64,000 bases of DNA, taken from assembly GCA_002304445.1 (NCBI GenBank), contig NEVA01000003.1, positions 62,001 to 126,000 of the forward strand, read 5' to 3'. How positions within the stretch are numbered: position 1 is the stretch's first letter; each line of letters starts with the position of its first letter. Positions 29,323-33,676 of this stretch are shown here, in pieces. Source of the stretch: Opitutia bacterium Tous-C4FEB. GTDB lineage: Bacteria > Verrucomicrobiota > Verrucomicrobiia > Opitutales > Opitutaceae. The notes beneath the pieces were generated by a model. It saw only the letters and a list, made by a program, of their open reading frames with translations, made no database searches and was not told the DNA's origin. A program made the position numbers and the translations under genes.

Positions 29323-32300
29323 TCAGCGCGAAGCCTCCAGGCGAATACGGGGGTCGAGCCAGAGCAGAAGCAGGTCGCTGACCAGTGTGCCAACGACGCC
29401 CATCAGGCTGAGCACAACCAGCATCGATCCCGCGAGGTAAACGTCTTCAACCAGCAAAGCGTCCAACATCGTCGGACCGACCATTGGGAGACTAAGCACA
29501 AGTGCCACGATCGCACCGCCGGAGACCAACTGGGGAAACATCGCCCCCAACCCTGAAACAAAAGGGTTGAGCGCCATCCGGACCGGATATTTCAGCAACA
29601 GTCTCACCGGCCTCACCCCCTTGGCCCGGGCCGTCGTCACATAAGGTTTTTGCAATTCGTCCAAGAGATTTGCCCGCATCACGCGGGTCATCCCGGCCAC
29701 ACCCCCAAAGCCCAAAACCACCACCGGCAACCACAGATGCTTTAAAAGATCCGTGACCTTTGCCCAACTCCAACCGGGCATCGATGCAAACTCCGTCGAG
29801 AAAAGCCCAGTGATATTCAGCCCCAACCAATGTTTGGCGGCGAACATGAGCACCAACGAAAGCAGGAACGCGGGCACGGACATCCCCAAGAATCCAAGCA
29901 AGGTGAGCGTATAATCACCCATCGAGTATTGCCGGACCGCCGAGTAGATACCCAAAGGCAAAGCCACCAGCCACGTCATGATCAACGTCGCAAACGAGAC
30001 AATCAACGTGAGCAGAATCCGGTCACCGATGACCTCGTTGACCGGCTTCTCATGCTCCATCGACAAGCCAAGATTGCCTTGCAGTAGCCCGGCGTCAGCC
30101 GCCTCAAACGACGTAAACCACGTGAGTCCGATCCAACGCGCGTAGCGCTGCACCAGGGGCTGTTCGAGACCGAAATTATTCCGCAAATCAGACGCCAGCT
30201 GCTCGTTGCTGGGCGTGCCCTGCAGCTCGAGTTGGGCGATCCGCGTCGCCACGTAATCTCCAGGCGGGAGTTGCACCAAAACGAATACGATCATCGAGAC
30301 CACAACCATCGTGGGGAACATGAGCAGAAGCCTCCGACCGATAAACGGGTGCCGCACCGCCACCAGGATCAGCGCCAATCCCAGCGCGAGCAGAAACAGT
30401 GTCCGTAAAGTCAACGCAAGGCCTTCGCCCGCGCCTGTGCCGCCTTCGGCCTCCGCCTCGCTCTGGGCGAGAGCGCTGGGCGACGGTGTGACCGCCTCCA
30501 ACTCCCGCTTGATTTGAGCGGTCACAGCGGGTCCGTCGGCCGGACGAGCCCAAAAGTAGGTCTCAATCCCGGCATTGCCCGGCGACTGCATACCGGCGCC
30601 AAACAGCGCGAGTCTCGGGACATTTCGAAAGCCATTCTTCACCACCACCAATTGCGGCGGCGGGGTCGAGATGCTGATCGTCCAGATATTATCCGCCGCG
30701 ATCTCCAAAGCTTCATTGAACCGTGCCCTTCGCTCCGCCTCGGTCGGCAACGCCGAAGCCTCTTCCAAAATTCGCATCGACCTGAGCAAGGGATGATCCG
30801 GCGGAGGCGCCATCGCGGCCGGGCGTTCGAGCACCGCAGGAGCTCCATTCAAGCCTCCGCTCTGATACCAAATTCCAAAACGCGGCGCAAAAAATGACTC
30901 GCCGTAAGTCGGCACAAAATTACGGGGCTCAACCAGCGGAAAAAACTCACTCTCGCCGGCCCAAACCGTGAAATCGTGCTCAAATGCGAGTTTCTCCTGG
31001 TCGAACAACTTCCTCGCCCGGGACCGGATGGTCAGGCGCACCCCGACCGCCGCCCAGTCATCCACAATGAATTGGGCCGGACCCAAAATCGTGTAATCGG
31101 TGAGATTCAGCGCAAACGTCATCCGCGTGCCATCGGCAAACGTCCGATAACCCTCACTGTCCCGGCGCGTCAGCCCCAAGCCATCGAGCAAGCGGTTGGC
31201 CTCAGCAGGATCATAAACTGTAAATGCGCCAAAAAGCCGCGGATTGTGATAGGGCGAATCGGGCCCCGGATCGATTTGGGCCGGTCTGGTCTGACCATTA
31301 AATTCGGCGTCGATAATGTCGCGCCGGTTGATCGCCAACGAAAGCGCTTGGCGAAAGGCGCGCTGGTTGAGCAAGTCATTCTTCAATCGGGTCTCGGGCC
31401 GCTCGGGATCGACGCGCCGGTTGAGATTAGGAAAGACTGTGAACAACGACTGCGTCGCGTGCTTCCAGTGATAGACTTCGTAGCCGTTGCGCGCCGCCCC
31501 GCCCAGCAGCAGGGTGTGATCCTCGTATCGGATCTGACGGTCCTGCATCGACGGCTCACCATTGGAAGAAGAGACCGCGATCAGATTGTTCGTCTTTATA
31601 TCCATCACCAGTCGGTCGAGGTAAGGCAGTTGATTGCCCTGCGGATCGACCGCGCCGTAGTAGGGATTGCGCACAAACGTCTGCGGGGTCGTGGGCGCAA
31701 ACGTCCGGTAAACCCAAGGCCAAAGCCGCGGATGCTCGGGATTGGTCCACATCTTGAGCCGCTTGTAGAGCGCGACCGGGCTTGAGAGCTTGAACGCCGC
31801 CATGGTGCGCTGAATGAGTTCCTGGTCACCCCACTTCGGGTGGTACCGCCGCAAGTAGTGCGCCGGCACGATGTAGTCGGTGTAGTCCTCGTAGTTCATC
31901 CCGATTGAAGCGAGTCGCTCGGGAAACAGGGGATTGGGCTCCTCAAAAGTAATTCGCACCCGCAGTTCGTCGATGACTTCAATCCGGCCCAAGCTCGGCC
32001 CGGCCCGAAAGAAACGTGGCTGAGCCTGGAAGAAGACGACCTCATCCTCATACCAATAACGCAGGTCCTCGCTCGTAAGCGGATGCCCGTCCGACCAGCG
32101 CATACCGCGACGCAAGGTGAAGATAAAAACCTTCTGGTCGTCGGATACCTCCCACCCCTTGGCAATGTGCGGCACGAGCGGGTAACCCTCCGGCGACCAG
32201 CGAACCAAATTTGCATAGGACAGCCGCCAAGTAATCGTCGTGAAATCTTGGATCGAGTTGGCGAGGCGATACCAAGTGCCGCCATAGTTCCCGGTGCCCT

Positions 32301-32649
32301 CGACTCCGCGGATGACAACCGGCTCCGATCCCACCCGCAACGCGACCGGCGGCAATTTCCCCTCCCGCACCAGTTCAGCCAATACGGGGGCCTCACCTTT
32401 TGGCCACCAAGCCGCTTGTGCGCCCTCGGAGTAGTCTACGGTTTGAGTCAGCACGAGCGTCTTGGCCGGATCCAGAATCTCGGCCCGACGGCGGGCGGCC
32501 TCGACCACGGCGAGCTCTTCGGCCGGGGGCGGGGCCGGCGGAGTCGCGACATCCGGTCGTAGCGCAAGCGCGGCAAGATACAGCAGTGCCGTGATCGCCA
32601 GCGCGGCGAGGACAAAGCCACCAACAGGTGCGAACAAGCTCTTCTTCAC
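29323..32649 (-). CDS. Fusion of family 5 extracellular solute-binding protein and OppB-type ABC permease
   Basis: A 1108-residue protein from GTG 32649 (KKSLFAPVGG then a membrane segment); frames further upstream look non-coding. After a 25-residue N-terminal transmembrane anchor, residues ~60-780 form a peptide/nickel-type binding protein (YGGTWYRLANSIQDF; LRRGMRWSDGHPLTSEDLRY; QALSLAINRRDIIDAEFNGQ). A linker with its own helix (about 805-830) joins it to an OppB-like permease of about 290 residues. The permease has MFPTMVVVSMIVFVLVQLPP, GNLGLSMEHEKPVNEVIGDR and the EAA loop ARAKGVRPVRLLLKYPVRMA. It should import oligopeptides or oligosaccharides. No OppC or ATPase gene is nearby. Confidence 0.88.
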   Translation of the reverse strand: MKKSLFAPVGGFVLAALAITALLYLAALALRPDVATPPAPPPAEELAVVEAARRRAEILDPAKTLVLTQTVDYSEGAQAAWWPKGEAPVLAELVREGKLPPVALRVGSEPVVIRGVEGTGNYGGTWYRLANSIQDFTTITWRLSYANLVRWSPEGYPLVPHIAKGWEVSDDQKVFIFTLRRGMRWSDGHPLTSEDLRYWYEDEVVFFQAQPRFFRAGPSLGRIEVIDELRVRITFEEPNPLFPERLASIGMNYEDYTDYIVPAHYLRRYHPKWGDQELIQRTMAAFKLSSPVALYKRLKMWTNPEHPRLWPWVYRTFAPTTPQTFVRNPYYGAVDPQGNQLPYLDRLVMDIKTNNLIAVSSSNGEPSMQDRQIRYEDHTLLLGGAARNGYEVYHWKHATQSLFTVFPNLNRRVDPERPETRLKNDLLNQRAFRQALSLAINRRDIIDAEFNGQTRPAQIDPGPDSPYHNPRLFGAFTVYDPAEANRLLDGLGLTRRDSEGYRTFADGTRMTFALNLTDYTILGPAQFIVDDWAAVGVRLTIRSRARKLFDQEKLAFEHDFTVWAGESEFFPLVEPRNFVPTYGESFFAPRFGIWYQSGGLNGAPAVLERPAAMAPPPDHPLLRSMRILEEASALPTEAERRARFNEALEIAADNIWTISISTPPPQLVVVKNGFRNVPRLALFGAGMQSPGNAGIETYFWARPADGPAVTAQIKRELEAVTPSPSALAQSEAEAEGGTGAGEGLALTLRTLFLLALGLALILVAVRHPFIGRRLLLMFPTMVVVSMIVFVLVQLPPGDYVATRIAQLELQGTPSNEQLASDLRNNFGLEQPLVQRYARWIGLTWFTSFEAADAGLLQGNLGLSMEHEKPVNEVIGDRILLTLIVSFATLIMTWLVALPLGIYSAVRQYSMGDYTLTLLGFLGMSVPAFLLSLVLMFAAKHWLGLNITGLFSTEFASMPGWSWAKVTDLLKHLWLPVVVLGFGGVAGMTRVMRANLLDELQKPYVTTARAKGVRPVRLLLKYPVRMALNPFVSGLGAMFPQLVSGGAIVALVLSLPMVGPTMLDALLVEDVYLAGSMLVVLSLMGVVGTLVSDLLLLWLDPRIRLEASR

Positions 32650-32770
32650 GGGGGAAACGAATGCCAGAAAAAGTTCACCTCTTGCGAAGGCAACGCTCTT
32701 CCCCGGCCCGCCGATGCGCCGTGTGTTGCGCACTTGCCAAGGTCGTCCGCCCCATACTGTGCTTGCGCCT

Positions 32771-33676
32771 ATGTCCCCTTCGATTTCGCGCCGAAACGCT
32801 CTCCGCTCATTCGCCGGCGCCGCCGCGCTCGCTGCCCTCGCCCGCCCAACTTCCTCCGCCGTCGCGCAAACCCCTGCGGCCCCAACCATGCCCGCTTCGC
32901 CCAATCCCATTCGTCACTCGGTCTGCAAATGGTGCTTTGGCAAAATCCCGCTCGAGGAATTCGCCAAGGCCGTGAAGGAATTTGGCATCGAATCGGTCGA
33001 ACTTCTCGACCCCAAGGATTGGCCGACCGTCCAAAAACTCGGACTCACCTGCGCACTCGCCACCGGCACGACGACCATTCCCGTCGGCTTCAACCGGATC
33101 GAGAATCACGCCAAGTACGTGGCGTCCATGACCGAGCGCATCAATGCGGTCGCCGATGCCGGCCTGCCCAGCGTGATCGTTTTTTCCGGCAACCGCACCG
33201 ACAAGGCCGGATTCACGGTCAGCGACGAACAGGGCATCGAGAATTGCGCCATCGGCCTCAAGCAGATCATGGGCGTCGCTGAAAAACGTGGCGTTAACGT
33301 CATCATGGAACTCCTGAACTCCAAGGTGAACCACAAGGACTACATGTGCGACCGCACCCCGTGGGGCGTGGAACTGGTGAAGCGCGTCGGCTCCGAACGC
33401 TTCAAGCTCCTCTACGATATCTACCACATGCAAATCATGGAGGGCGACGTGATCCGCACGATTCAGGAGAACCATAAATACATCGGTCACTACCACACGG
33501 CGGGAAATCCCGGCCGGGCCGAGTTCGAGCCCGGCGATCAGCAAGAGCTTTACTATCCGCCGATCATGCGCGCCATCGCCGCGACCGGTTTCAAGGGCTT
33601 CGTCGCGCAGGAGTTTATCCCGAAGCGCGATCCCCTCACCTCATTGCGTGCGGCGGTTAAGCTCTGCACGGTCTGA
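32771..33676 (+). CDS. Tat-exported TIM-barrel sugar isomerase/epimerase-like protein (hydroxypyruvate isomerase-like)
   Basis: A 301-residue protein from ATG 32771. The N-terminus has a Tat-type signal (SRRNALRSFAGAAALAALA). The rest is an AP-endonuclease-2-fold TIM barrel, with SVCKWCFGKIPLEEFAKAVK, VIMELLNSKVNHKDYMCD, LLYDIYHMQIMEGD and GHYHTAGNPGRAE, typical of hydroxypyruvate isomerase-like enzymes (metal-binding Glu/Asp/His). The substrate is likely a sugar or hydroxy acid in the periplasm. It is divergent from the transporter fusion and convergent with gatB. Confidence 0.87.
   Translation: MSPSISRRNALRSFAGAAALAALARPTSSAVAQTPAAPTMPASPNPIRHSVCKWCFGKIPLEEFAKAVKEFGIESVELLDPKDWPTVQKLGLTCALATGTTTIPVGFNRIENHAKYVASMTERINAVADAGLPSVIVFSGNRTDKAGFTVSDEQGIENCAIGLKQIMGVAEKRGVNVIMELLNSKVNHKDYMCDRTPWGVELVKRVGSERFKLLYDIYHMQIMEGDVIRTIQENHKYIGHYHTAGNPGRAEFEPGDQQELYYPPIMRAIAATGFKGFVAQEFIPKRDPLTSLRAAVKLCTV

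Follow-up and report, generated by a model that had tools for sequence, protein, structure and literature searches.

The 64,000-nucleotide stretch of the Opitutia bacterium Tous-C4FEB genome analysed here (the window; contig NEVA01000003.1, positions 62,001 to 126,000) carries on its reverse strand a single gene, AB, in which a family-5 (cluster-C) binding protein (A) is joined to a complete OppB-type permease (B). Importers of the Opp/Dpp class are the standard example of a pore supplied by a free, separate binding protein. We found that the fusion is conserved in many genomes, clusters in one clade in a quick tree, has a predicted additional helix between its two halves and co-occurs with a gene for the second permease, OppC, which in this genome lies in an OppC-OppD-OppF (C-D-F) operon elsewhere on the contig. 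It is likely that AB is a tethered subunit of an Opp/Dpp-type (type I) ATP-binding cassette (ABC) importer that assembles with the products of this unlinked operon, probably for the uptake of oligosaccharides.

A binding protein and an OppB-type permease in one reading frame

The frame 29323-32910 on the reverse strand is free of internal stops throughout. Its first start codon, at 32910, opens a 1195-residue frame, and the GTG at 32649 is the start favoured by the alignment of homologues, so that the coordinates 29323-32649 in the initial annotation proved exact to the base. Searched with Pfam, the 1195-residue frame matched, in this order, SBP_bac_5 (154.3 bits; cut-off 32.4), BPD_transp_1_N (29.5; 23.8) and BPD_transp_1 (91.0; 26.4), all above cut-off. 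The features of the gene are as follows (TM, transmembrane helix).

29323..32649, reverse strand: fused gene, binding protein (A) and OppB permease (B), 1108 residues, GTG start, stop codon included
32563..32634, reverse strand: N-terminal helix TM-a, residues 6-29 (hydropathy, residues 12-30; AlphaFold2 helix, 6-29)
30544..32454, reverse strand: cluster-C / family-5 binding domain, presumably periplasmic, residues 66-702 (Pfam; PDB sequence and fold matches)
30424..30543, reverse strand: variable linker, residues 703-742 (low AlphaFold2 confidence at 730-743)
30352..30432, reverse strand: extra helix TM-b, residues 740-766 (hydropathy, 747-765; AlphaFold2 helix, 740-766)
29335..30348, reverse strand: OppB-type permease domain, residues 768-1105 (Pfam, PDB sequence, structural comparison)
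29590..29631, reverse strand: EAA/coupling loop ARAKGVRPVRLLLK, residues 1007-1020 (read in the sequence)

Among PDB sequences, the OppB domain matched DppB (8z1v, E-value 2.9e-29) and Rv1283c (8j5q, E 1.7e-27), and structural comparison of its model with 8j5q_B gave Z 23.4 over 306 residues. The NCBIfam models Opp1B-Opp4B, NikB, GsiC, YejB, DppB and OppB all scored below cut-off, the best being Opp4B (197.2 vs 450). An AlphaFold2 model of the AB monomer, built from 35 fused sequences, had a mean predicted local distance difference test score of 79.9 and a predicted template modelling score of 0.77; the binding domain was confident (blocks mostly 80-97) and the OppB domain helical at moderate confidence (blocks 42-81). 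These two domains were the main queries of our fold searches.

Near-full-length fusions in one frame were found with the 1108-residue query in 23 of 177 genomes of the order, including the source genome (22 of the 176 others); one copy is cut by a contig end (G063), and two of the carriers, G035 and G004, are single-contig genomes. Within the family Opitutaceae, where the initial annotation had proposed to look for the same fusion, it was present in 15 of 61 genomes at E <= 1e-100, and at the same threshold a profile search across the phylum (387 genomes) gave matches in 30, some of them single domains. Twenty-seven other fusions align end to end with the window's at 45-66% identity (alignment A1, 28 rows, leaving out L038 and L043), and another metagenome-assembled genome (MAG) carries a gene 97% identical to it (L094). 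Among the 78 loci listed from a contig scan, 36 had both domains in one frame and 42 had separate genes; 35 of the 36 are intact, and L101, counted as fused, is broken into two frames inside the binding domain. A second alignment, A2, holds 35 rows, with L101 and L103 left out, and 58 of the 63 rows of A1 and A2 are distinct. By their record titles, the fused loci come from Verrucomicrobia/Opitutales, Planctomycetota/Phycisphaerae, Lentisphaerae/Victivallis, Kiritimatiellota, Spirochaetes, Gemmatimonadetes, Raymondbacteria and Abditibacterium; because 34 of the 36 titles say MAG, some of these phylum labels may be binning errors. Viral contigs, searched with one protein query and six short patterns, yielded no relative. 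That a single polypeptide combines a family-5 binding protein with a full OppB through an anchor helix is thus upheld by Pfam, by the open frame and by homologues across Opitutaceae and beyond.

The ratio of nonsynonymous to synonymous substitution rates (dN/dS) was 0.07-0.12 for the whole gene against three relatives and 0.06-0.10 for the OppB domain. Against L107 it was 0.05-0.06 in both domains and 0.36 in the linker, with TM-b saturated; against L079 it was 0.10-0.11 in both domains, 0.46 in the linker and 0.48 in TM-b. Residues A1009, K1010, G1011 and P1014 of the coupling loop are invariant in A1, as is a PPG after OppB helix 1, near the region of the DppB scoop motif. That an assembly error joined two genes is hardly conceivable. 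A and B are indeed neighbours in unfused relatives, and the initial annotation had pointed to a possible stop codon near 30400-30530; however, the linker is open in L094, L107 and other fused relatives, and many assemblies, including the one-contig genomes G035 and G004, have the same fusion with a linker region and helix that align. We rejected this explanation on the recurrence across order genomes and loci, the 97% identical copy and the dN/dS values.

The helix TM-a has no Cys and therefore no lipobox, and it may act as an uncleaved signal anchor with a cytoplasmic N-terminus. The distance from the end of the binding domain to OppB in fused proteins is 55-84 residues (median 63), and an extra helix was predicted there in 62 of the 63 rows of A1 and A2, falling below threshold in L083. 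TM-b would cross from the periplasm to the cytoplasm. OppB-type permeases have a cytoplasmic N-terminus, with which the RR before OppB helix 1 is consistent; a periplasmic partner can therefore be fused N-terminally only with an added membrane crossing, and TM-b would supply one. An internal restart yielding free OppB was considered and rejected, as the start codon is not conserved: 3 of 35 rows have a start codon with a Shine-Dalgarno-like 4-mer in the interval from TM-b to OppB helix 1, and the candidate restart of the window and L094, at residue 777, lies inside OppB helix 1.

Among the unfused loci listed, gene order was A-B-C in all 42, with D/F after C in 32. We read ten unfused junctions by eye (eleven including L109): the binding protein stops soon after its last conserved motif, OppB has candidate start codons just ahead of its RR motif, and the ten have neither linker nor extra helix between A and B. 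In an OppB-domain tree of 81 rows, built by a quick method with support from the Shimodaira-Hasegawa-like approximate likelihood ratio test (SH-aLRT) only, 36 fused loci and the window fell into one clade (SH-aLRT 99) with one row labelled separate, L109; two label changes suffice. The junction of L109 has frame breaks in linker and OppB and a run of C, and its OppD is broken too; we read it as a frameshifted fusion, caused by sequence error, and kept its label in the count. The pattern suggests a single origin of the fusion.

Other arrangements were also seen. L066 and L097, apparently one and the same contig, hold two fused genes in tandem, OppC not being found on that contig, and L067 has two AB-C units in tandem; both are local duplications of the fusion. 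The genome with L198 (G042:C167) has two fused copies and, at this locus, an A-B-C-D-F operon from the same wider family with unfused genes. Fifteen loci with long OppB-containing frames held no further A-B fusion, and six were OppB-OppC fusions. These six (L190, L191, L192, L193, L195 and L197, from order relatives) belong to a more distantly related system and have OppB and OppC in one open frame of 753-995 codons; their binding protein has its own frame beside it.

Probable partner subunits encoded elsewhere

The genome has 14 matches to BPD_transp_1 and 6 to oligo_HPY, of which the window contains a single one, the permease of the fusion itself; no further permease or oligo_HPY ATPase is encoded there. 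The initial annotation was therefore right that no OppC or ATPase is linked here, but a fusion standing alone is not supported. The orphan OppC-ATPase genes that it had suggested looking for lie at C23:23430-26289, 65 kb away on the same contig, and we rejected the idea of an orphan protein without partners.

C23:25156-26289 (L059:7157-8290), reverse strand: OppC (OppC_N 47.7 bits, BPD_transp_1 87.7 bits)
L059:6327-7157, adjoining OppC: OppD, 277 residues (ABC_tran)
within C23:23430-26289, after OppD: OppF, 299 residues (ABC_tran)
C23:49788-51793 (L060:5789-7794): second OppD-OppF pair, open frames, no permease nearby

The C, D and F frames are open and adjoining. The oligo_HPY model matched in part in both ATPases, OppF scoring 34.2 and OppD 23.6 against a cut-off of 27.1. 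Compared with the OppC that follows fused genes in other genomes, this OppC is 58-71% identical (53-73%, L085 fragments aside). In the 61 family genomes, the fusion (E <= 1e-100) occurred in 15 and a partner-type OppC (E <= 1e-60) in 16, which included all 15; OppC was thus present in 15 of 15 fusion carriers vs 1 of 46 others (Fisher's exact p 2e-13, uncorrected for relatedness). The additional OppC genome, G545, has an OppC 42% identical, and G491, from the same genus as the source, has neither gene.

Among the fused loci listed, C follows the fusion in 25 of 36, and D/F follow C in 15. Closer relatives show the same separation as the source genome, and others have C next to the fusion. Six genomes (G532, G535, G550, G537, G013 and G562) have a fusion copy without C in the fetched flanks, which for G537 reach less than 1 kb on one side, and their C gene lies on a different contig. 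In five of them C is followed by D and F; for G562, the 11 kb retrieved showed neither. A further AB copy in G535 does have C, D and F nearby (L188).

In the window's clade, AB is accompanied by a TIM-barrel gene, a Fur-like gene, an M16-type gene and gatB, and this neighbourhood recurs in several members; the TIM and FUR names are Pfam matches, and the M16-type and gatB genes are putative, named from their sequence. Six strong SBP_bac_5 genes also lie elsewhere in the genome, at C7:105527, C3:99990, C5:48188, C5:49880, C1:270934 and C1:53980 (two of them adjacent); up to 30 kb from them, their contigs have no BPD_transp_1 match.

The probable substrate

The initial annotation called the binding protein peptide-type, which now appears doubtful. 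At E < 1e-15 the binding domain matched four distinct PDB sequences: 5ipw, two of SPH1118 (pectin) and MelB (alpha-galactosides). The best match was 5ipw (E 1.7e-81), whose PDB name, oligopeptide-binding, is a label rather than an assay; SPH1118 gave E 2.6e-65. Fold comparison ranked 5ipw (Z 42.8), SPH1118 (41.1-41.4) and MelB (about 32) at the top; the galacturonate-bound form of SPH1118 gave Z 41.1 with a root-mean-square deviation (rmsd) of 1.9 over 591 residues. The ligand-pocket arginines described for SPH1118 include R57, R438, R466 and R496 (PMC9314435). As paired by hand from one alignment, R466 and R496 face R546 and R576 of the window's protein, which are kept in 18 and 22 of the 28 rows of A1 and in 25 and 26 of the 35 rows of A2, respectively; Trp594 of SPH1118 lies outside the aligned stretch.

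We also surveyed proteins flanking fused loci. Candidates were taken from 25 loci, with ten skipped (including the window's clade, with gatB-type neighbours), one giving none and L113 dropped as a near-copy of L108; of the 167 candidate proteins, 92 were scanned together and 20 of these also singly. Among the 25 of 142 families listed, counted without a background rate, were sulfatase (4), GFO_IDH_MocA (3) and alpha-L-fucosidase, apiosidase-like and heparinase II/III-like proteins (2 each), the last at L083 and L108. Single scans revealed GH42 and GH95-like proteins in L091, a melibiase match barely above cut-off in L090, and also proteins that have no sugar link, such as a TonB receptor, a molybdopterin enzyme, TPR and 4Fe-4S proteins. 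At L112, an alpha-L-fucosidase gene (L112:4214-6010) precedes the fused gene on its strand, and its TGA stop shares one base with the ATG of the fusion; the two are likely an operon, which is a hint to the substrate. By analogy with these relatives and neighbours, the substrate is most likely oligosaccharides released from polysaccharides rather than peptides.

Alternatives, proposed mechanism and known importers

Several observations weigh against an oligosaccharide importer built from AB and C-D-F. In 11 of the 36 fused loci no C was seen in the stretch covered (L088 ends soon after the fusion), and the co-occurrence was computed for OppC only, D and F being outside that count. AB is unlinked from C-D-F here and the genome has a second D-F pair, so AB may serve another complex. 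The OppD encoded beside this OppC is without the Cys tail seen at the C-terminus of OppD in most of the relatives scored, and so is that of L178, in a survey covering frames with a matched signature motif, some counted twice. As to the substrate, R57 of SPH1118 faces W141 (with R142 beside it) and R438 faces Y519, neither conserved as aligned; the window's own AB neighbours are not glycan enzymes, and the sugar hints of the source genome are limited to the TIM-barrel gene by AB and a Gfo/Idh/MocA and sugar-transporter-like pair by C-D-F. The flank tally covers 25 of 142 families, with singletons and peptidases outside the count.

The same tethered importer could instead carry oligopeptides, as suggested by the first rank of 5ipw in both E and Z and by Opp4B, an oligopeptide model, as the best NCBIfam permease match, albeit below cut-off. 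We regard this as unlikely though by no means negligible, since the 5ipw label comes without an assay whereas the ligand-tested close relatives bind sugars, and glycan enzymes, for which we have no background rate, lie beside several fused loci. It is rather improbable that AB is served by different or several ATPase sets, such as the second D-F pair, the C-D-F ATPases being impaired by loss of the Cys tail. That pair is open and without a permease nearby, a truncated tail as in the 277-residue OppD is also found in L178, and the cluster of MtbOppD is described as critical for stabilising the MtbOppABCD complex (PMC12136057); yet D and F beside OppC are open and adjoining, and they accompany C in five of six other split genomes. 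A sensor or scavenging protein without a transport role, or a non-functional fused relic, would fit the absence of a transport partner from the window, but is very improbable given the co-occurrence with OppC, the C gene next to the fusion at 25 of the 36 fused loci and the low dN/dS of the OppB domain.

Taken together, we favour a tethered importer working as follows. TM-a would anchor the chain with its N-terminus in the cytoplasm and place the cluster-C domain in the periplasm; a flexible linker would lead to TM-b, which would bring the chain back to the cytoplasm so that OppB starts with its usual topology. AB would assemble with OppC, OppD and OppF from the operon C23:23430-26289, with exactly one binding protein for each heterodimeric B-C pore, kept locally concentrated near the periplasmic loop of OppB that receives it. 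Oligosaccharides from polysaccharides would be the substrate, and an effect of tethering on their delivery is plausible.

More broadly, and tentatively, a cluster-C importer lineage may have been fused once, by a linker and a new, oppositely directed helix, and have spread to Verrucomicrobiota, Planctomycetota, Lentisphaerota and others to import polysaccharide fragments with one tethered binding protein per pore; AB might later have split from C-D-F in Opitutaceae, and distant relatives in the order might have fused OppB and OppC instead. If so, several stages of a transporter being welded together could be compared in the A-B and OppB-OppC fusions. With A and B conserved as a fusion, every heterodimeric pore would have a fixed complement of one binding protein. 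Such a fusion would also show how a single additional helix overcame a topological obstacle, OppB starting inside and the binding protein lying outside. It would offer a natural system for the effect of tethering in the Opp/Dpp class, and it warns that oligosaccharide importers of these bacteria may be going under the name "peptide transporter".

Among the features of Opp/Dpp/Nik-type importers, an SBP_bac_5 protein, an OppB-type permease and an unlinked OppC gene are present; a separate binding protein and permease, customary though not strictly defining, is absent, the two being in one frame. GlnPQ, OpuA and ArtRQP, in which binding domains are already known to be tied to the pore, belong to other permease and binding-protein families. 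Like the window's fusion, GlnPQ (PMC8025302), OpuA (PMC11065425) and Bacillus subtilis ArtRQP (PMC11466899, where the fusion is a structure prediction) are described as type I importers with a binding domain covalently on the membrane subunit. GlnPQ is a homodimer with tandem binding domains, joined to the membrane domain by a 19-residue linker in an arrangement said to aid fast delivery (PMC8025302), whereas in the window's fusion each B-C heterodimer would have a single binding domain, and an additional helix would precede the permease. The binding domain resembles SPH1118 of Sphingomonas sp. A1 (PDB 7veq-7vew; Z 41, rmsd 1.9), which is described as a separate protein with its signal sequence removed (PMC9314435) and differs in two pocket residues. 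The OppB domain resembles that of Mycobacterium tuberculosis OppABCD (8j5q; Z 23.4), where the permease is a chain of its own with 325 residues. With Escherichia coli DppABCDF (8z1v) the proposed importer would share a cluster-C binding protein, two permeases and two ATPases, and DppB is homologous to the OppB domain over its length. DppABCDF is described as five distinct subunits (PMC12136057), however, and DppB matches without the linker and extra helix. According to the same source, DppBCDF is activated by DppA and ATP together, and the periplasmic scoop motif of DppB touches DppA (PMC12136057). We found no description of a cluster-C/OppB fusion in the openly licensed literature; the novelty lies in how the domains are arranged, the importer class itself being known.

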